Source of the DNA: Burkholderia lata
GTDB lineage: Bacteria > Pseudomonadota > Gammaproteobacteria > Burkholderiales > Burkholderiaceae
Assembly (NCBI RefSeq): GCF_000012945.1
Contig: NC_007511.1
Span: 2,790,001-2,854,000, forward strand
Direction of reading: 5' to 3'
DNA: 64,000 bases
Of the stretch, positions 3,706-16,828 are shown one piece after another. Below the pieces are notes generated by a model that saw only the letters and a list, made by a program, of their open reading frames with translations, did no database searches and had not been told where the DNA came from. Position 1 is the stretch's first letter, and every line of letters starts with the position of its first letter. Both the position numbers and the translations under genes were made by a program.

Positions 3706-4602
3706 CTAGATCGCGATGCCCGTTCGTTCGCTGAACGCCGCACGCAAGAGGTGTGCGTCCGTCATCTCCATCCGGGCGAGCTCGGCGAGCACCGACGGAA
3801 GCAGCCATTCGATGTTCGGATCGACACGCTTCATCTGCTCGACCAGCGCGGCCGTGAACGCCGCATCCTCGTGTGCGCCCGACTCTCCGGCCTGACGGCG
3901 CTGCCGGTACAGCACGCCGACCCAGTAGCCGATTCGCTCCGGCACGATCCAGCCGGCATACGTACGCGGGAACTCGGCCTTGCGCAGCGCATCGCGCACG
4001 ACGTCTTCCGGATCGCGCGTCGCGGGCGAGAAACACATTTGCTCGCTCTGCACGAGCAACGCTGAGGTTGCATTGTCGTACGCCGCATAGGTCTCGCTGC
4101 AGACGCCCGTGTCGGGATCGAAGCGATAGCCGACGTGGACGGTCACTCGCCCGTCCGGCATCGCGAACGTCCGGTTCGGCGGACACAGCGCGTGACGCTC
4201 GGCGAGTGTCAGGAACGCGCCGGTCGCATGCGAATACTCGCGTTCGCGCTGGCGATTGAGCGTCGGATCGATGACCCAGACGACCAACGTCGCCGTGTCG
4301 GGACGATCGCGCGCCGTTAGATAGCTTTCTGCCGGAATCGCTGCCACAACCGTCGGCGGCAGGTCGGCATGGCCGATGCGTTTGCGGAACGGCATCGACG
4401 TCACTGTCGCTTGCTGTTCAACCGGCGTGCAACGGCACGACGCCTGGCCGTACCCCCACACCTGATTGCAGCGCACGGCGCTGCCACAGTCGTTCCGGAA
4501 CACTGGTTCATGCCAGCCCCCTGTTGTTTCATTCCGTTTCCAGGCATCCGCCCTCTCACGCGTACGGGATCGATCCCAGCGATTGTAGCGGTAGCTGTTC
4601 AT
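3706..4602 (-). CDS. Hypothetical protein of unknown function
   Basis: About 298 residues from the ATG at 4602. In-frame starts also exist at 4689 and at 4395 (MPFRKRIGHAD), and none has a clear ribosome binding site, so the N-terminus is uncertain. The first 95 residues are rich in Arg and Cys and may not be translated. The remainder (AESYLTARDRPDTATLVVW onward) looks like a compact soluble domain with mixed alpha/beta content, including AGWIVPERIGYWVGVLYRQR and a helical C-terminus. No signal peptide or known family is recognised. The gene is divergent from the FMN reductase gene. Confidence 0.55.
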   Translation of the reverse strand: MNSYRYNRWDRSRTRERADAWKRNETTGGWHEPVFRNDCGSAVRCNQVWGYGQASCRCTPVEQQATVTSMPFRKRIGHADLPPTVVAAIPAESYLTARDRPDTATLVVWVIDPTLNRQREREYSHATGAFLTLAERHALCPPNRTFAMPDGRVTVHVGYRFDPDTGVCSETYAAYDNATSALLVQSEQMCFSPATRDPEDVVRDALRKAEFPRTYAGWIVPERIGYWVGVLYRQRRQAGESGAHEDAAFTAALVEQMKRVDPNIEWLLPSVLAELARMEMTDAHLLRAAFSERTGIAI

Positions 4603-4691
4603 GCGCAGCGCGGCTCGAACACCGGTGCGATAATCCGTGCGATCCGCGCGACGCTCGCCGCTACGCCACGCGCCAACCGACACGCACATCG

Positions 4692-5264
4692 ATGACCACC
4701 GATCCCCGCCCCCACGCCGACCGCCATCTCGACATCGTCGCGCTGTGCGGCAGCCTCCGCGCGCAGTCGTACAACGCCGCGCTGCTCGATGCGGCCGCGC
4801 TCGTCGCGCCGCGCGGCATGCGCATCGTGCGCTTCGATCGTCTCGGCGAATTCCCGCTGTTCAATCCCGACGCCGAATTTCCGTCGCCGGCCGCCGTGCG
4901 GGACCTGATCGACCGCGTGAATGCCGCCGACGGCCTGCTGATCGCGAGCCCGGAATACGCGCACGGCGTAACGGGCGTGATGAAGAATGCGCTGGACTGG
5001 ATCGTGGGGTGCGACGCCGTCGTGTACAAGCCGGTCGCCGTACTGAATGCGTCGCCGCGCGCGACGCATGCGGACGCGGCACTGCGGGAAACGCTGTCGG
5101 TGATGTCGGCGAACATCGTCGAGCGCGCGTCGATCACGCTGCCGATCCTCGGAAGCCAGCTCGACGCAGCCGGGATCGCCGCGCATCCGCCGTTCGCGTC
5201 GGCGCTGGCCGATGCGTTGCATGCGCTGCGCGCGGCAATCACGGAAGGCGAGCCATCACCCTGA
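4692..5264 (+). CDS. NADPH-dependent FMN reductase family protein
   Basis: This 190-residue flavodoxin-fold protein should reduce FMN or quinone-like substrates with NAD(P)H in the cytoplasm. The N-terminal flavin phosphate loop is visible as LCGSLRAQSYNAALL, followed by the isoalloxazine-binding motif SPEYAHGVTGVMKNALDW typical of the NADPH-dependent FMN reductase family. Length matches the family (about 180-200). The ATG at 4692 is just before the first beta strand. It is transcribed away from the neighbouring hypothetical gene. Physiological substrate cannot be assigned. Confidence 0.85.
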   Translation: MTTDPRPHADRHLDIVALCGSLRAQSYNAALLDAAALVAPRGMRIVRFDRLGEFPLFNPDAEFPSPAAVRDLIDRVNAADGLLIASPEYAHGVTGVMKNALDWIVGCDAVVYKPVAVLNASPRATHADAALRETLSVMSANIVERASITLPILGSQLDAAGIAAHPPFASALADALHALRAAITEGEPSP

Positions 5265-6439: not shown

Positions 6440-7045
6440 CTAGCGGCTCTTGCCGCGCGTGCCCTTCTTCACCGCCTTCGCGCGCGGCGCTTCCTTCTCG
6501 GGCTGCGCGCCGCCGCCGGCGAGATCCTCGAGCCACGCGAGCGCGTCGACATACGACAGGAACTGCTGCAGATAAGCCGGCGACAACTCGCGCATCGTCG
6601 CGAGCGACCGGTGCACGAGACTGTTCGAATTGAGCGGCCCCGCGTTACGCGGCACCTGGTCGAGCGACTGACGGTACTGCTGTTCCGTGCGGACTTTCGA
6701 CCACATCGTGCGGAAGTAGTCGACCAGCTCGGGATCGAGCCCGCGCCGGTCGGCCTGCGCATCGCGCGCGAGCCGCTCGACGAGTGCCGCCAGCGCGCCA
6801 CGCGCGGGCGCCTCTACCGCGGCGCTTGCGGTGGCCGTTTCACCAGCGCACGCCACCACCTCCGCGAAGCCTTCGAGCAACGTCGCCAGCCGTGCGTCGA
6901 GCAACGCGCGTGCATCGCCTTCGAGCGCGGCCGCGCGCCGTTCGAGCGCGTCGATCCGGTGAAAGCGCACCGGATCGAGCCGGTCGGCACCTTGCTCGCG
7001 CCAAGCGTCGAGCGTCGTGCGGACGTGCGTCGCGTCGCCGGTCAC
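6440..7045 (-). CDS. DUF2894 family protein, last gene of the stator-like operon
   Basis: A 201-residue soluble protein with a helical N-terminal half (DALERRAAALEGDARALLDARLATLLEGF), a conserved-looking core (YFRTMWSKVRTEQQYRQSL, then NSNSLVHRSLATMRE and SPAYLQQFLSYVDALAWLE), and a Lys/Arg-rich tail (AKAVKKGTRGKSR). This matches DUF2894, a Burkholderiales family of unknown function. The start codon overlaps the OmpA/MotB-like gene by four bases (ATGA), so translation is probably coupled. The core suggests a cytoplasmic partner of the stator proteins; the basic tail could bind nucleic acid or phospholipid. Both statements are inference. Confidence 0.8.
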   Translation of the reverse strand: MTGDATHVRTTLDAWREQGADRLDPVRFHRIDALERRAAALEGDARALLDARLATLLEGFAEVVACAGETATASAAVEAPARGALAALVERLARDAQADRRGLDPELVDYFRTMWSKVRTEQQYRQSLDQVPRNAGPLNSNSLVHRSLATMRELSPAYLQQFLSYVDALAWLEDLAGGGAQPEKEAPRAKAVKKGTRGKSR

Positions 7046-7686
7046 TGCGCCTTCCCTCCGTTCGATGCCGATTTGCGCGGCACCGGCGCGATCTCCACGC
7101 GGCGGTTCTTCGCGCGGCCTTCATCGTCCGCATTCGAGCTGACCGGCTGCTCGGAGCCGAACGCGGCCGCGAACACCGACGACGCCGGCACGCCGGCGTC
7201 GATCAGCGCACGCGTGACCGTCAACGCACGCTTGGCCGACAGTTCCCAGTTGTCCGTGAACTGGCGGTTGCCCGCATGCACCTGCTGGTCGTCGGCGAAG
7301 CCGCTGATCATCAGGATCTCGTCGCGTGTCTTCAGGTAGGCGCCCAGCGGCGCGGCCAGCGTCTTCAGCAGGTCGCGGCCCGCAGGCTGCAACTGGTCGG
7401 AGTTCAGCGCGAACAGCACGTTGCCGCTGATGCCGATGCGGCCGTTCACGAGCGTCACGCGGCCGGCCGCGAGCGGCCCGGCGAGCGCCTGCTCGAGCGA
7501 CTTGCGCTGCTGCGCTTCCTGCTGGCGCGCGCGCACGGCTTCCTCGAGCTTCGACGTGAGCTGAAGCTGCATGCCGATCACGCCGACGAGGATCAGCACG
7601 AACGCGCCGAGCAGCACCGACATCAGGTCGGCGAACGCGGGCCATACCGGTGCGGAGGACGCGCCGCCGTCGATTTCGTCGTGCAT
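7042..7686 (-). CDS. OmpA/MotB-like peptidoglycan-binding stator subunit (ZorB-like)
   Basis: The 214-residue protein has a short cytoplasmic N-terminus, one membrane helix (about 17-38) with Asp20 in FADLMSVLLGAFVLIL, the position of the proton-carrying Asp of MotB, then a coiled linker (about 40-70) and an OmpA-like domain. In that domain NWELSAKRALTVTRALIDAGV and GRAKNRRVEI hold the Asp/Arg-type peptidoglycan-binding region. With the upstream DUF802 protein this makes a MotA/MotB-type pair in the inner membrane, anchored to the cell wall. The gene starts three bases after the DUF802 stop. Architecture is as in ZorB, but no Zorya effector gene is adjacent. Confidence 0.85.
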   Translation of the reverse strand: MHDEIDGGASSAPVWPAFADLMSVLLGAFVLILVGVIGMQLQLTSKLEEAVRARQQEAQQRKSLEQALAGPLAAGRVTLVNGRIGISGNVLFALNSDQLQPAGRDLLKTLAAPLGAYLKTRDEILMISGFADDQQVHAGNRQFTDNWELSAKRALTVTRALIDAGVPASSVFAAAFGSEQPVSSNADDEGRAKNRRVEIAPVPRKSASNGGKAQ

Positions 7687-7689
7687 GCG

Positions 7690-10600
7690 TTACGCTCCGA
7701 CGCTCGCCCGCCGGCCGGCGAGCTGCTGCAGGTCTTCGACGATCTGCTTCTGCGACATCATGCTCAGGTCGATCACTTCGCGCGCCTGCGCGACGTAGTA
7801 CTCGAGCTGCTCGTCGCTGCGCGCGAGCGACTTCTCGAGCGCGGCCTCGATGCGTTGCAGATGGGTCAGCAGCTTGTCGTTCGACTCGCCGAATACCTGC
7901 ACGGCCATCCCGAACGCATCGCCGAGGCTCGCGACTTCGACAGCGCCCGCCGTGACTTGCGCGGCCACCGAGTCGAGCTTGCGCGTTTCGGCATCGACGG
8001 TGTCGTTGAAGCGCGCGCCGACGCGGTCGAGCAGGTCGGCCGACGTGCTGACGAGCGCGTCGATCGCGGTGCGCTGTTCGGTCGACGCGTGGTTGACCGC
8101 ACCGAGCAGCGTTTCGAGCGTCGCGAGCAGGCGGCTGCGTTCCTCGAGCATCGCAGTGTCGTGCACCAGGCTGTCGGACAAACGCTGGCGCAGCTCGGCG
8201 ACGACGTCGGCCGCGGCCTTCGGCGCCTCCGATGCAGCCTGCACGAGGCGCGCGATCTCGTTGATCGTGTCGCTCGCATGCACCTGCGCCTGCGCGGTGA
8301 TGTCGTTCGCGGTGCGGGCCAGCGTGTCGCAGATGTCCTGCTGACGCGTCGCGGCCTGCGCGCTCGTCTGCGCCCATTCGTCGCGCAGCGCGGCGGCCAT
8401 CGCGGCGAGCGAGTCGTTCCATGCGGACAGGCGCTGTTCGTCGCGCGCGGCCAGTTGCGTCTGCAGGCCGGCGTGCGAATCGCGAATCGTCGACAGCAGC
8501 TCGTTCGAGCGTTGTTCGAAGGTCGATGCCTGCGTGGTCAGGTCGCGCGTCGTTTGGGCGAGTGCGTCGCAGATTTCCTGTTGACGGCCTGCGCTGTGCA
8601 CGCCTGCGCGCTGCCATTCGTCACCAAGCTTCGTGGCCATCGCGGCCAGCGAATCGTTCCATGTCGACAGGCGCTCTTCATCGCGTGCGGCAAGCTGCGT
8701 CTGCAGGCCCGTATGCGAATCGCGAATCGTCGACAACAGATCGTTCGAGCGTTGTTCGAAGGTCGACGCCTGCGTGGTCAGGTCGCGCGTCGTTTGGGCG
8801 AGTGCGTCGCAGATTTCCTGCTGACGGCCCGCGCTGTGCACGCCTGCGCGCTGCCATTCGTCACCAAGCTTCGTGGCCATTGCGGCCAGTGAATCGTTCC
8901 ATGCGGTGAGACGTTCTTCGTCGCGCGCCGCCAGTTGCGTCTGCAGGCCCGTATGCGAATCGCGAATCGTCGACAGCAACTCGTTCGAGCGTTGTTCGAA
9001 CGTCGATGCCTGCGTAGTCAGATCGCGCGTCGTTTGTGCGAGTGCGTCGCAGATTTCCTGCTGACGGCCCGCACTATGCACGCCTGCGCGCTGCCATTCG
9101 TCGCCGAGCTTCGTGGCCATCGCGGCCAGCGAATCGTTCCATGCCGACAGGCGTTCTTCATCGCGTGCGGCAAGCTGCGTCTGCAGGCCCGTATGCGAAT
9201 CGCGAATCGTCGACAGCAGCTCGTTCGAGCGTTGTTCGAACGTCGAAGCCTGTGCCGTGAGATCGCGCGTCGTTTGCGCCAGTGCGTCGCAGATTTCCTG
9301 CTGACGGCCGGCACTGTGCACACCTGCGCGCTGCCATTCGTCGCCGAGCTTCGCGGCCATCGCGGCCAGCGAATCGTTCCACGCAGCGACGCGCTGTTCG
9401 TCGCGCGCCGCCAGGTCGGACTGCAACCCCGCGTGCGACTCTCGCATCGCGGCGAGCGTCGCGCCGGAATGACGTTCGAACGTCGCGGCGGCGTCGCCCA
9501 GCGCGCGCGCATGCTGGCCGGCCAGCGTCTCGCCGACCTGCTCCTGGCGCGACAGCGCATCGCGCCATGCGTCCGACAGGCGGCTTTCGGTCGATTCGAG
9601 GCGCGTCGCCACGCCGTCGAGCAGGTCCGTCGAACGCTGCGAGAACGTATCGGTGAACTGGCCGAGCGTCGTCTGCAGCTGCTGCGCGACGGCGTCGCCC
9701 GCGCGGCGCTGTTCGTCGAGCGCGCGGTTCCAGACGGCCGTCACGTTGCCGGTGGTCTTCTCGAAACCGTCCGTCAGCCCGTCGAGCTGACGCTGCACGG
9801 CGCCCGTCACGGTATCGCGCAGCGCGGCCATCTCCTGCGCGAGCCCCGTCATCGTCGCGGCGACGACCGGCTGCAGCGCGGCACCCGCCACGCGCGCGCT
9901 TTCGGCGGCGCTTTCCTTCAGCGCGTCGCCGACATTCGACGCGAGGCCCGCATACGCGCGCTCGGTCCGGTCGAAAAACGCCTGCTGGCTTTCGATCTGG
10001 CGATCGTGCAGCGCGACGCTGCGCGCCTCGAGCGACGTCATCATCGTCTGCAGACGATCGACCAGCGCCGGCATCACGTCGGCCTGGCGCTGCAGCAGCC
10101 GGAACGATTCGTCGCGCTGGTGCGCGGACGAATGCACGCGCAACGTCGTCGCGATCTTCGCGTCGAGCTGCTGGGCCGCGTCGATCCGCTCGCGGCGCAC
10201 GAGCGCGGACAGCAGGCCGAGCATCGCGGACGTCGCGACGCCGGCGATCGACGTGCCGAACGCGAAACCGAGGCCCTTCACCGGCGCGATCAGCGACGCG
10301 CGGATCGCGTCGAGATCGGTCGCGCTTTCGAGCGCGGCGCCGGTGCCCTTCAGCGTGACGACCATCCCGAGCAGCGTGCCGAGCATGCCGAGCAGCACGA
10401 GCAGGCCGACGAGGTAAGGCGTGAGCGACGGGCCCGGCAGCGCGACGCGCGCGCCTTCGACCCGTGCGCGCACGGCGCCACGCAGGCCCGGATGCAGCGT
10501 GTCGAGCCACGTGTCGAGCTTCGCGGGCGACTCGCTCAGGCCGGCGACCGCGCGCGACAGCGTTGCGGTGGCCTGCCGGTAGCGCAGCAGCTCCCATGCG

Positions 10601-10737
10601 CCGGCGACGTAGCACGCGGCGATCAGCAGCGTGACGGCCGACGCCAGCGGGTTCGACGCGACATAGCCGACGCCGATCCAGCCCACAGCGAGCAGACCGG
10701 CGACGAAGACAACGAGATCAAGGCGAATTCTGGACAT
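7690..10737 (-). CDS. DUF802 protein: MotA/ExbB-like channel with very long repeated cytoplasmic tail (ZorA-like)
   Basis: This 1015-residue protein has four predicted membrane helices (about 8-28, 31-51, 107-129, 153-180). Helix 3 reads LLVLLGMLGTLLGMVVTL and helix 4 GTSIAGVATSAMLGL, the conserved pore pattern of MotA/TolQ/ExbB proton channels; Thr121 and Thr162 are candidate pore residues. About 830 residues of mainly helical, Gln/Ala/Arg-rich sequence follow, predicted coiled coil, with four 80-residue repeats (452-771) and flanking half repeats. DUF802 is a repeat family of unknown function. The downstream gene supplies a MotB-like partner. Family knowledge suggests an ion-driven 5:2 complex; the long tail would reach deep into the cytoplasm, as in ZorA. 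Its output is unknown. Confidence 0.85.
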   Translation of the reverse strand: MSRIRLDLVVFVAGLLAVGWIGVGYVASNPLASAVTLLIAACYVAGAWELLRYRQATATLSRAVAGLSESPAKLDTWLDTLHPGLRGAVRARVEGARVALPGPSLTPYLVGLLVLLGMLGTLLGMVVTLKGTGAALESATDLDAIRASLIAPVKGLGFAFGTSIAGVATSAMLGLLSALVRRERIDAAQQLDAKIATTLRVHSSAHQRDESFRLLQRQADVMPALVDRLQTMMTSLEARSVALHDRQIESQQAFFDRTERAYAGLASNVGDALKESAAESARVAGAALQPVVAATMTGLAQEMAALRDTVTGAVQRQLDGLTDGFEKTTGNVTAVWNRALDEQRRAGDAVAQQLQTTLGQFTDTFSQRSTDLLDGVATRLESTESRLSDAWRDALSRQEQVGETLAGQHARALGDAAATFERHSGATLAAMRESHAGLQSDLAARDEQRVAAWNDSLAAMAAKLGDEWQRAGVHSAGRQQEICDALAQTTRDLTAQASTFEQRSNELLSTIRDSHTGLQTQLAARDEERLSAWNDSLAAMATKLGDEWQRAGVHSAGRQQEICDALAQTTRDLTTQASTFEQRSNELLSTIRDSHTGLQTQLAARDEERLTAWNDSLAAMATKLGDEWQRAGVHSAGRQQEICDALAQTTRDLTTQASTFEQRSNDLLSTIRDSHTGLQTQLAARDEERLSTWNDSLAAMATKLGDEWQRAGVHSAGRQQEICDALAQTTRDLTTQASTFEQRSNELLSTIRDSHAGLQTQLAARDEQRLSAWNDSLAAMAAALRDEWAQTSAQAATRQQDICDTLARTANDITAQAQVHASDTINEIARLVQAASEAPKAAADVVAELRQRLSDSLVHDTAMLEERSRLLATLETLLGAVNHASTEQRTAIDALVSTSADLLDRVGARFNDTVDAETRKLDSVAAQVTAGAVEVASLGDAFGMAVQVFGESNDKLLTHLQRIEAALEKSLARSDEQLEYYVAQAREVIDLSMMSQKQIVEDLQQLAGRRASVGA
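8425..9384 (-). repeat. Four 240-bp tandem repeats inside the DUF802 gene
   Basis: Units at 9384-9145, 9144-8905, 8904-8665 and 8664-8425 each encode 80 residues beginning AWNDSLAAMA and containing GVHSAGRQQEICDALAQTTR and FEQRSNELLSTIRDS. Only a few residues differ between copies, so DNA identity is very high. Degenerate half units flank both sides. The period keeps frame, so gain or loss of units would only change tail length. Confidence 0.95.
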
Positions 10738-10747
10738 AGCGTGTTGA

Positions 10748-11527
10748 TTAGCTGGTGCGAAGGGCCGCGAGCAGCCCGTCTACCGTTTGAAACCGGACTT
10801 CGAGTTCGGCAAGCAGGATGCTTTGCATCTCGTCGCGAAACGTATCGAGCCATGCGCCGGGCACGATCGCCGCGACGGCCGTGCCATCGGCCACTACCGC
10901 GCCGTCATCGGCCGGGTCGGCCGTTGCTGCGGCTGCGGCCGCGGATTCGGCATCGGCCAGCGCCTGCCGCTCCGCGTCGCGCAGCCGCCCGAAACGCGTG
11001 CCGAGCAGCGCGGGAATGGCCGAGAGCAGGCTGCGCTCGCGCGCGCCGAGCACGCGCTCCATGATCGCGTCGAGCGTCGCGAGCCGCGCCATCCCGGACG
11101 AGCGCGCGGCGACCGCGACCCGCAGGCGGCCGCGCAACTGGCCGATCGCCGTTTCCATGTCCTGCTGCAGGGACAGATAACGCTGGCGGAAGTCCGCGAA
11201 ATCGGCCGTGTCGGCAGCCGGCGGCGGCGGATCGCCGGGCCGGCGCCGCGCTCGCGGCCGGTTGGTGGCCGTGATCGCCTGCGCGAGCTCGTGGCGCACG
11301 CGCGCGCCGTCGCGCTCCGCGTCGTAGCCGCGCACGCCGGCCGCGACGCCCGGCGGGCTCGCATTCAGTGCGGACGACAGCGTGATCGCGTCGGTCCAGC
11401 CGAGCCACTGGCTCAGCCGGTCGGACAGCGTCTGCCGGGATTCCGCGACGTCGGCATCGGCCAGGCGCGCGAGCAGCCGGACGAGCGCCGGGCCGCTCAG
11501 CGCCGGGCGCGGAGGTGCTTGCACCAT
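10748..11527 (-). CDS. DUF3348 family protein, first gene of the stator-like operon
   Basis: A 259-residue soluble protein. It opens with a helical region (LVRLLARLADADVAESRQTL), has a Pro-rich linker (about 110-122), then a helical core (FRQRYLSLQQDMETAIGQLR, ATLDAIMERVLGARERSLL) and ends in WLDTFRDEMQSILLAELEVR. This matches DUF3348, found next to DUF802 genes in Burkholderiaceae, function unknown. The ATG at 11527 is chosen because the family-like sequence starts there, though its ribosome binding site is poor. The frame remains open to a GTG at 11899, which would add a Gly-Glu, Gly-Lys and Gly-Asn repeat. It ends ten bases before the DUF802 gene starts, so the four genes look cotranscribed. 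Confidence 0.8.
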   Translation of the reverse strand: MVQAPPRPALSGPALVRLLARLADADVAESRQTLSDRLSQWLGWTDAITLSSALNASPPGVAAGVRGYDAERDGARVRHELAQAITATNRPRARRRPGDPPPPAADTADFADFRQRYLSLQQDMETAIGQLRGRLRVAVAARSSGMARLATLDAIMERVLGARERSLLSAIPALLGTRFGRLRDAERQALADAESAAAAAATADPADDGAVVADGTAVAAIVPGAWLDTFRDEMQSILLAELEVRFQTVDGLLAALRTS

Positions 11528-11689
11528 GCTGCAAACCGTCAAAAAAGGCAGCAGTTTACACGTCGCCGGGAGGTCGGCCGCCAGAATCGGGGAAGCGGCG
11601 CCGTTCGGCGCGGCGCGCGACACACGCGAACGCCCGCCGCGCAAGGCTTGGCGGGCGACCGGGGGTGGCTGCGGCGACGGTCCGGCCGC

Positions 11690-11894
<205 letters not shown>

Positions 11895-13357: not shown

Positions 13358-13996
13358 TCAGATGCCCGCTTTCGGTGCATTCAGGATCAGTCGAAGACCG
13401 AGCAGTGTGATCGCACCGGCGGCGACGCGGTCGACCCACTTCTTCGCGCGCAGGTAAAGCTCGCGCGGCCGGCGCGTGGAAAAGCACAGCGCGACGATCG
13501 TGTACCATCCGAACTCGACGCCGAACACGAGCGGCGGCAGCGCCAGATAGCACCACAGCGGCGGATGCTGCGGGAGCAGCGCCGCGAAGATGCTGCCGTA
13601 CCAGATTGCCGTCTTCGGGTTGCTGAGCTGGGTCGTGAGGCCCGTCCAGAACGACTTGCGCGCGCTGCCGCCGGCCATCGCCTGCGGATCGTCCATCGCG
13701 ATCGGCCGGTCAGCGCCGCGCCAGATCTTCGACGCCATGTAGATCAGGTACGCGCCGCCCGCCAGCTTGAGGCCCACGTACAACCATTCGACCGCCTGCA
13801 GCAGCGTGTAGAGCCCGGCCAGCGCGACGCCGCCGAACACGATGCCGCCGATGCCCATGCCGAGCGCGGTGGCGAGCCCGTCGCGGCGCGACAGCCCGAT
13901 CGAATTGCGGGCAACCAGCACGAAGCTCGGGCCCGGAATCATCGCGCCGAGAAACAGCGCAGCCAGGATGGCGAGTACGGCAGCCGATGCAGTCAT
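13358..13996 (-). CDS. LysE/RhtB family amino-acid exporter
   Basis: A 212-residue inner-membrane protein with about six membrane segments. The N-terminal LysE signature is clear: LFLGAMIPGPSFVLVARNS, followed by GLATALGMGIGG. A second typical motif is FWTGLTTQLSNPKTAIWYGS. LysE/RhtB proteins export amino acids or their derivatives. The start at 13996 has a strong ribosome binding site (CCAAGGAGACTTCG). The substrate cannot be predicted. It is divergent from the GNAT gene. Confidence 0.9.
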   Translation of the reverse strand: MTASAAVLAILAALFLGAMIPGPSFVLVARNSIGLSRRDGLATALGMGIGGIVFGGVALAGLYTLLQAVEWLYVGLKLAGGAYLIYMASKIWRGADRPIAMDDPQAMAGGSARKSFWTGLTTQLSNPKTAIWYGSIFAALLPQHPPLWCYLALPPLVFGVEFGWYTIVALCFSTRRPRELYLRAKKWVDRVAAGAITLLGLRLILNAPKAGI

Positions 13997-14147
13997 CGAA
14001 GTCTCCTTGGTGAGCGACGCCGAATCGCCGACGCCTGCGTGTCGTTTCCGACGGTCGAAGCGCTGATTCTGGCACGCTTCGCACATGGCCGAAAGCCGCC
14101 GTGCGCTGCTATGCTGGCCCTCTTTCCCGTCATTCGCGCCGCCCCCC

Positions 14148-14612
14148 ATGATCGAGATCCGCGCCGCCCGCTATCCCGACGACGCCCGCGTCGTCGAGGC
14201 GATCTTCCGCGAGTACATCGCGAGCCCCACCGTCAGCCTCGAATTCCAGGACTACGAGCCCGAGATCGCCGCGCTTCCCGGCAAGTACGCGGCGCCGCGC
14301 GGGCTGCTGCTGCTCGCCTGGCACGGCGAACGCGTGGTGGGCTGCGCGGCGTTTCGCGAGATCGACGACACGACGTGCGAGATGAAGCGCGTCTACGTGC
14401 GCCCCGAAGCGCGCGGGCTGAACGTCGGCCGCCAGCTCGTCGAACGGCTGCTGCACGACGCGAAAACGGCCGGCTATGCGCGCATGTGCCTCGACGTGCT
14501 GCCGGAGTTCGTCGCGGCCAGGAAACTGTATGCATCGCTCGGCTTCACGCCCGCGCCGCCGGTCGCGTTCAATCCGGTGCCGGGCACCGAGTTTCTCGGG
14601 CGGGACCTGTAA
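14148..14612 (+). CDS. GNAT family N-acetyltransferase
   Basis: A 154-residue cytoplasmic acetyltransferase. The acetyl-CoA site is visible as MKRVYVRPEARGLNVGRQLVE (motif A, with R-x-x-G-x-G-like loop RGLNVG), followed by CLDVLPEFVAARKLYASLGF (motif B, typical end of the fold). Length matches single-domain GNATs. The ATG at 14148 directly precedes the first strand (IEIRAARYPDD). The acceptor substrate is unknown. The exported protein gene downstream starts 50 bases after the stop and may be cotranscribed. Confidence 0.88.
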   Translation: MIEIRAARYPDDARVVEAIFREYIASPTVSLEFQDYEPEIAALPGKYAAPRGLLLLAWHGERVVGCAAFREIDDTTCEMKRVYVRPEARGLNVGRQLVERLLHDAKTAGYARMCLDVLPEFVAARKLYASLGFTPAPPVAFNPVPGTEFLGRDL

Positions 14613-15240: not shown

Positions 15241-15448
15241 CGCGGCCGGGGCAACGCGCTGCAACCGGTTGCGTCGCACGCCGGCCGGCGCGGGCGCGGC
15301 CGGACCCAGTCATCCCCCGCTTCTCCCGCACTCGCGAGCACACGCCAACAGGACTACCATAAGCGCTCGCCGTCGCGCGACCGTGCGCCGGCCCCGCACG
15401 CGGCTCGCCCGCACGCGTTCCCTCGCTGCACCCGCACAGGAGGACGTC

Positions 15449-16828
15449 ATGACGCAACACTTCGACGCGATCGTCATCGGCACCGGGCAGGCCGGGCCGC
15501 CACTCGCCGCGCGGCTGTCCGCCGCCGGCATGAAAGTCGCGATCATCGAACGCGGCCGCTTCGGCGGCACCTGCGTGAACACCGGCTGCATCCCGACCAA
15601 GACACTGATCGCGAGCGCGTACGCCGCGCACCTCGCGCGGCGGGGCAGCGAATACGGCGTGTCGGTCGGCGGCCCTGTCACCGTCGACATGAAAGCCGTG
15701 AAGGCGCGCAAGGACCAGATCTCCGGCCGCTCGAACCAGGGCGTCGAGCAATGGGTGCGCGGCCTCGCGAACACGACCGTGTTTCAGGGTCACGCCCGCT
15801 TCGAGCGCGCCGATGCGGTGCGCGTGGGCGACGCGCTGCTCGAAGCGGAACGCATCTTCATCAACGTCGGCGGGCGCGCGCAGGTGCCGGCCATGCCGGG
15901 CCTCGACACGGTGCCGTACCTGACCAACTCGACGATGATGGACGTCGACTTCCTGCCCGACCATCTCGTGATCGTCGGCGGCAGCTACATCGGGCTCGAA
16001 TTCGGCCAGATGTATCGCCGCTTCGGGTCGAAGGTCACGATCGTCGAGAAGGGTTCGCGCCTGATCCGGCGCGAGGACGAGGACGTGTCGCAAGCCGTGC
16101 GCGACATTCTCGAGAAGGAAGGAATCGACGTGCAACTCGATGCGACCTGCCTGAGCGCACGGCGCAACGGCGACGGCATCGCGGTCGGCCTCGACTGCGT
16201 GGGCGGCGGCCGCGAGGTCGCAGGCTCGCACCTGCTGCTCGCGGTCGGACGCGTGCCGAACACCGACGATCTCGGGCTCGACCGTGCGGGTGTCGCGACT
16301 GACGCGCGCGGCTATATCGAGGTGGACGAACAGTTGCGCACAAACGTGCCCGGCATCTGGGCGCTCGGCGACTGCAACGGGCGCGGCGCGTTCACGCACA
16401 CCGCGTACAACGACTTCGAGATCGTCGCGGCCAACCTGCTCGACGGCGATCCGCGCAAGGTGTCCGATCGCATCGCGGCGTACGCGCTGTACATCGATCC
16501 GCCGCTCGGCCGCGTCGGCATGACGTTCGCGGAAGCGAAGCAGACGGGCCGCCGGCTGCTCGTCGGCACGCGCCCGATGACGCGCGTCGGCCGCGCGGTG
16601 GAAAAAGGCGAGAGCCAGGGTTTCATGAAGGTGATCGTCGACGCGGACAGCCACGCGATCCTCGGCGCATCGATCCTCGGCGTGACGGGCGACGAAGTCG
16701 TGCACGGGATGCTCGACGTGATGGCCGCCGGCGCGCCGTACACGACGATCAGCCGCGCGATGCACATCCACCCGACCGTATCGGAGCTCGTGCCGACGCT
16801 GCTGCAGGATCTGCATCCGGTCGAATGA
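15449..16828 (+). CDS. FAD-dependent pyridine nucleotide-disulfide oxidoreductase (mercuric reductase-like)
   Basis: This 459-residue flavoprotein belongs to the dihydrolipoamide dehydrogenase, glutathione reductase and mercuric reductase superfamily. FAD binding is seen at residues 9-16 (VIGTGQAG), the redox disulfide as Cys42 and Cys47 (GGTCVNTGCIPTKT), the NAD(P)H site as VIVGGSYIGLEFGQ, and the FAD-contacting WALGDCNG. The C-terminus carries MHIHPTVSEL, the active-site His-Glu region. No HMA domain or vicinal C-terminal Cys pair is present, so mercury reduction is unlikely, and no lipoyl-complex genes are near. The ATG at 15449 has a ribosome binding site (CAGGAGGACG). The true substrate is unknown. 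Confidence 0.85.
   Translation: MTQHFDAIVIGTGQAGPPLAARLSAAGMKVAIIERGRFGGTCVNTGCIPTKTLIASAYAAHLARRGSEYGVSVGGPVTVDMKAVKARKDQISGRSNQGVEQWVRGLANTTVFQGHARFERADAVRVGDALLEAERIFINVGGRAQVPAMPGLDTVPYLTNSTMMDVDFLPDHLVIVGGSYIGLEFGQMYRRFGSKVTIVEKGSRLIRREDEDVSQAVRDILEKEGIDVQLDATCLSARRNGDGIAVGLDCVGGGREVAGSHLLLAVGRVPNTDDLGLDRAGVATDARGYIEVDEQLRTNVPGIWALGDCNGRGAFTHTAYNDFEIVAANLLDGDPRKVSDRIAAYALYIDPPLGRVGMTFAEAKQTGRRLLVGTRPMTRVGRAVEKGESQGFMKVIVDADSHAILGASILGVTGDEVVHGMLDVMAAGAPYTTISRAMHIHPTVSELVPTLLQDLHPVE

Follow-up and report, generated by a model that had tools for sequence, protein, structure and literature searches.

A Zorya type III operon of Burkholderia lata with core-gene behavior in the genus and a ZorA rod of stepwise length

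A stretch of 64,000 nucleotides from Burkholderia lata (contig NC_007511.1, positions 2,790,001 to 2,854,000; hereafter the window), located on contig C3 of an 8.68-Mb genome in three contigs, contains a four-gene operon that is a Zorya type III system. The four encoded proteins match the PADLOC models ZorA3, ZorB3, ZorF3 and ZorG3 with E values from 0 to 2.4e-83, and ZorA also matches the ZorA1 model at 9.6e-16. Zorya type III was named in 2021 by PADLOC and defined by a pair of zor genes with flanking genes of the DUF3348 and DUF2894 families (PMC8565338); the definition as ZorAB plus these two families is also given in PMC11890865. The definition passage of PMC8565338 prints the pair as 'zorBC', while its discussion names ZorA, ZorB, ZorF and ZorG; 6,401 cases were counted there, and a type III operon from Stenotrophomonas nitritireducens lowered the plating of at least one phage on E. 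coli. The names of the two partners are swapped between sources: the text of PMC8565338 calls DUF3348 ZorF and DUF2894 ZorG, and the models of PADLOC-DB 2.0.0 (PDLC00652-PDLC00658) reverse them. The present operon, with ZorAB flanked by DUF3348 and DUF2894 genes, has the same four adjacent families and shows no difference in kind from the published type. It is thus no new machine, and the suggestion of an initial annotation that it might be undescribed does not hold. What is added here to the published type is its core-gene behavior in the genus and a quantized rod.

The operon lies on the minus strand throughout, in the order DUF3348, ZorA (DUF802), ZorB (OmpA) and DUF2894, with gaps of 10 and 3 bases followed by a 4-base ATGA overlap (Table 1). 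Coordinates, spacings and families, as given by the initial annotation, were confirmed from the sequence and by Pfam. Its reading of the central pair as an ion-driven stator of the ZorA/ZorB kind, with a long rod and a partner that binds peptidoglycan, agrees with the PADLOC and Pfam matches, as does the shared operon with the DUF3348 and DUF2894 genes. The two DUF families indeed stand in place of ZorC, ZorD and ZorE, for which PADLOC gave no match in the four proteins at an E value of 1 or in ten neighboring reading frames at 1e-5. A search for the four genes as a conserved block, which had likewise been proposed, showed that 67 of the 72 loci fetched keep all four on a single strand and in unchanged order (including L076, in which the DUF2894 gene is cut by a contig end); the arrangement is therefore far from chance. 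Of the five others, three are truncated by contig ends, and L125 and L126 have none of the four genes. Ranked by DUF3348, the closest named relatives are Burkholderia puraquae (97%), B. aenigmatica (96%) and B. lata (96%), a ranking from which records nearest to the window's own genome may be excluded.

Table 1. Features of the Zorya type III operon, in window coordinates
Feature	Position	Strand	Evidence
DUF3348 protein, 259 aa	10748..11527 (ATG at 11527)	-	Pfam PF11828 1.8e-86; PADLOC ZorG3 2e-95
ZorA3/DUF802 protein, 1015 aa; MotA/ExbB-like channel and helical rod of about 820 residues	7690..10737	-	PADLOC ZorA3 E = 0; Pfam DUF802 2.2e-26
4.3 tandem copies of a 240-base (80-residue) unit in the ZorA rod, residues 442-787	8374..9414	-	Tandem Repeats Finder
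ZorB3, 214 aa; membrane helix with Asp20 and OmpA-type peptidoglycan-binding domain (predicted)	7042..7686	-	PADLOC ZorB3 1.4e-114; Pfam OmpA 1.7e-18
DUF2894 protein, 201 aa; conserved C-terminal motif and basic tail	6440..7045	-	Pfam PF11445 2.3e-55; PADLOC ZorF3 2.4e-83

Both motor proteins display the sequence traits shared by all Zorya types. ZorA combines a MotA/ExbB-like channel, which carries the motifs GMLGTLLGM and GTSIAGVATS and conserved polar pore residues, with a long cytoplasmic rod; channel residues 109-184 have a weak sequence match to the solved ZorA-like chain 8vvn_C (E = 0.046). ZorB has an Asp in its membrane helix and an OmpA domain predicted to bind peptidoglycan. Sequence alignment of the window proteins with their fetched relatives revealed no variation at ZorB Asp20 or at the OmpA-domain residues D145 and R153 (68 of 68 rows each), and ZorA T121, T128, T162, S163 and S170 are invariant in all 71 rows, three of which are cut C-terminally by contig ends. 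The conservation of Asp20 and the pore threonines, on which the initial annotation had staked its stator, is therefore complete in these alignments. In types I and II, a conserved ZorB Asp lies inside a ring of ZorA Ser/Thr residues, and altering peptidoglycan binding, the rod or ion flow spoils the defense (PMC11890865). Judging from the sequence, Asp20 and the Thr/Ser residues found here probably occupy the same positions. The ZorA/ZorB stator, a domain predicted to bind peptidoglycan and the long cytoplasmic rod are common to types I and II and to the present operon, whereas the latter has no matches to ZorC/D or ZorE and the type III rod varies in steps.

We consider it very probable that the operon as a whole encodes a Zorya type III motor with its effector. 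Family identity, operon structure, residue conservation, the periodic rod with register-preserving repeats and the core-gene behavior were computed here, and the putative working of the machine is modeled on types I and II. Five ZorA and two ZorB subunits would assemble in the inner membrane into a rotary motor powered by ions. The OmpA domain of ZorB would grip the peptidoglycan, and Asp20, ringed by the Thr/Ser residues of ZorA, would carry the ion. When the wall is disturbed locally, for instance by the injection of phage DNA, ions would flow and ZorA would turn or rearrange, and a five-helix ZorA rod would relay the change into the cytoplasm. Finally, DUF3348 and DUF2894 would act as the receiver and effector in place of ZorC/D/E. 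The 5:2 assembly, ion flow, wall sensing and anti-phage activity are all assigned to this locus by analogy.

Regarding the two partners, structure prediction yielded a helical DUF3348 (predicted local distance difference test score, pLDDT, 71.5) and a poor model of DUF2894 (pLDDT 58.2). Across 28 aligned sequences, DUF2894 has a nearly invariant QxLDQVPxNAGPLNS motif and a basic C-terminal tail, features with which it may touch nucleic acid. PADLOC and Pfam searches of the operon proteins gave no match to nuclease families. We thus favor binding over cutting, and our guess is that DUF2894 binds so as to stall the injected DNA or the cell. It is a further guess that DUF3348 is the partner of the rod and DUF2894 the part meeting nucleic acid.

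The length of the ZorA rod, taken as the distance between the channel motif and the stop, is mostly quantized in Burkholderia. In all 28 uncut Burkholderia loci (two further loci are cut), the rod has 616, 696, 776 or 856 residues. In a second, overlapping set of 28 genus genomes of 2-7 contigs, 21 rods fall on the same series, three on an 80-step series offset by 3 (619, 619 and 699) and four off it (635, 788, 941 and 951). A simple rule by which steps of 80 would account for every Burkholderia rod is therefore not fully true. Within each of six species, represented by two or three strains, the rod lengths are equal (6/6). A fast, phase-variation-like change of rod length was also considered and is unsupported, on small numbers in which two Cupriavidus metallidurans records may be one strain. 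The rods of the C. metallidurans loci L200 and L201 also have an 80-residue repeat, as in Burkholderia. In the window, every rod repeat has a single cysteine in the equivalent position (residues 483, 563, 643, 723 and 803), and ZorA otherwise contains only Cys42.

Beyond Burkholderia, other unit lengths are in use. When only the best-scoring array per rod was counted, arrays were present in 95 of 128 rods and absent from 33 by the criteria used, and 14 distinct unit lengths, all of whole codons, were found across genera. The unit of 87 residues occurs mainly in the genera coded g3, g20 and g10, and that of 62 in g11; the units of 29, 44, 51, 69, 73, 94, 131 and 149 residues occur in one to three loci each. 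An 87-step series starting from 539 was tried for these other genera and fits only in part: in g3, two of 14 rods are exact and nine of 14 are one residue short, three of six rods fit in g20 and two of four in g10, and none of eight does in g11, where one more locus has no anchor motif.

These unit lengths share a helical register. The hydrophobic period of the ZorA tail is 3.65 residues, with a power reached by none of 500 shuffles, and the three parts tested separately gave periods of 3.67, 3.63 and 3.57. When the 14 unit lengths were treated as helix phases, their resultant reached 0.924 at 3.636 residues per turn, against a mean best value of 0.447 for control lengths jittered by up to 5, of which 0/5000 reached 0.924; the loci are kin, and the unit lengths need not be independent repeat origins. 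The units that fit least well are those of 44 residues (12 turns of 3.667) and 94 residues (26 turns of 3.615). After removal of the three multiples (102, 153 and 160), the 11 remaining lengths gave 0.922 at 3.630, a value reached by 0/5000 controls for each of three jitter widths, and the six units found in at least two loci gave 0.975, which 9/5000 controls reached. A unit met later, 113 residues in Paraburkholderia caribensis and P. largidicola, equals 31 turns of 3.645. The repeats thus add near-whole turns, which is what a continuous bundle that has to preserve its register would require, and both the periodicity of the rod and the repeat lengths fit a continuous helical bundle. If every chain formed a single unbroken helix, the 820 residues would extend over about 120 nm.

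We tentatively propose, at somewhat less than even likelihood, that the Zorya type III systems of the Burkholderia family act as core rotary machines for envelope sensing, with a register-locked, extendable rod as a ruler. Different lineages would add tandem units of differing length (29 to 149 residues, including the later 113), each close to a whole number of turns of some 3.636 residues, so that the length could be tuned without breaking the signaling bundle. Among the matches listed by a literature search by title, none dealt with tandem repeats or tail length in Zorya or ZorA, and the available passages of PMC11890865 on the rod and tail of types I and II do not mention such repeats. Kindred species with closely similar ZorB and partners, and with rods differing by exact units, offer a natural experiment. 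The permitted unit lengths reveal the helical register, and any role of rod length or of register in signaling becomes directly testable.

The operon also looks like a core gene in the genus. Counted by PF11828, that is, by DUF3348 alone, the family occurs once in each of 64/64 genus genomes, the match in G050 (830 contigs) being partial, and in 30 of 31 genomes of genus g11 of the same family, the sole miss being a 1.2-Mb genome. A draw from the whole family gave 247 of 349 genomes and 11 of 25 genera, and among the 102 misses, 17 of the 20 listed are smaller than 3 Mb. Matches fell to 23/299 in the order draw (six from the family and 17 outside), to 9/377 in the class draw, counting the window's own genome, and to 0/14 in control genomes. 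Two of the 17 order-draw matches outside the family (G368 and G481) are not the operon and have none of the four genes: at L125 and L126, weak DUF3348 matches (G481, 5.4e-6; G368, 4.1e-5, the second of them under the cut-off) fall within frames 460 and 453 residues long, and none of the four window proteins has a relative in the 20 kb fetched around each. DUF3348 matched no phage record. At a limit of 1e-40, 27 of 72,556 plasmid records contain ZorB; all of these measure 0.37-3.5 Mb, and 20 are typed as non-mobilizable and seven as mobilizable.

The surroundings of the operon behave accordingly. In 30 named Burkholderia loci, several of which are shortened by contig ends, a pyridine nucleotide-disulfide oxidoreductase gene (window 15269-16828) recurs in 29, a LysE-type translocator gene (13358-14149) in 26 and an FMN reductase frame (4524-5264) in 22. 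The 40 other loci compared are without these neighbors, save one LysE-type match (L111), and three further window frames are matched in 13, 3 and 1 of them. The location of the block is thus fixed in the genus and different in other genera. Furthermore, the pairwise divergence of ZorB and of DUF3348 tracks that of the oxidoreductase over 28 sequences (Spearman 0.72 and 0.75, respectively; 0/999 permutations each). The ten neighboring frames of the window gave no PADLOC match at 1e-5; the operon does not have the traits of a mobile defense island (patchy distribution, defense neighbors and mobile elements), which are no part of the Zorya definition.

A defense system apparently fixed in a whole genus raises the question of whether Zorya type III has a day job. 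The operon could be a core envelope-maintenance machine, the motor of which senses disturbances of wall or turgor, with phage protection as a side effect of plasmid expression in E. coli. This explanation agrees with the Zorya type III motor-and-effector reading on identity and differs on purpose, and the confidences in the two do not sum to one; we regard it as rather unlikely. The constant single copy of DUF3348 in the genus and its near-constancy in g11, the shared neighbors, the divergence in step with a flanking redox gene, the lack of PADLOC matches in the neighboring frames, and the restriction to large plasmid records (ZorB) and absence from phage records (DUF3348) all speak for it. 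However, E. coli carrying a related operon shows lower phage plating (PMC8565338), matches outside the family are sparse in the order and class draws, and the spread of the three Zorya types has been called typical of anti-phage systems (PMC11890865). There are, moreover, core defense systems: PMC13064858 cites Zorya III of R. solanacearum as one of the highly conserved kind, and conservation as such has therefore been noted before. Several findings weigh against the motor-and-effector reading itself. The core distribution is unlike that of most defense systems, and the phage phenotype is known for a relative only. Fold searches with DUF3348 and DUF2894 gave nothing at E <= 0.001 and identified no effector domain, and the NCBIfam ZorA models stay under their cut-off for this ZorA (17 vs 190 bits). 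When B. cenocepacia K56-2 was infected with a single phage, changes in the predicted Zorya I and III operons were limited to their first one or two genes, and in the available part of that paper the authors' list of transcriptionally active systems does not name Zorya (PMC12584637).

A motility stator of flagellar or gliding type (MotAB/PomAB), extended at its C terminus, is very improbable. The channel pattern and the OmpA-type domain are indeed common to both, the ZorB OmpA domain has MotB chains as sequence relatives in the PDB (3khn, 2e-17), and there are low-score NCBIfam matches to MotB and MotD. These MotB-type models, however, stay far under their cut-off (MotD, 85.4 vs 283 bits; best 25 of 42 NCBIfam families), whereas the uncharacterized NCBIfam family NF006547 passes (387.8 vs 194). 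In addition, ZorA matches ZorA3 models and no MotA Pfam family at 0.01, and in contrast to MotAB/PomAB the present operon has a rod and is partnered by DUF3348 and DUF2894.

A promoter scan of the operon found none, and terminator-like sites numbered 3, with 4.0 expected. Upstream, between the DUF3348 gene and a divergent DUF1444-like gene, lie about 30 copies of a six-base G/A-rich repeat of the GGGCAA type (window 11689-11893), which might influence operon expression. Among 32 relatives, one of which offers just 158 bases of upstream sequence, a similar long array is present in L062 and L065, L064 has a short six-base array beside a seven-base array, and the others have none or unrelated repeats.

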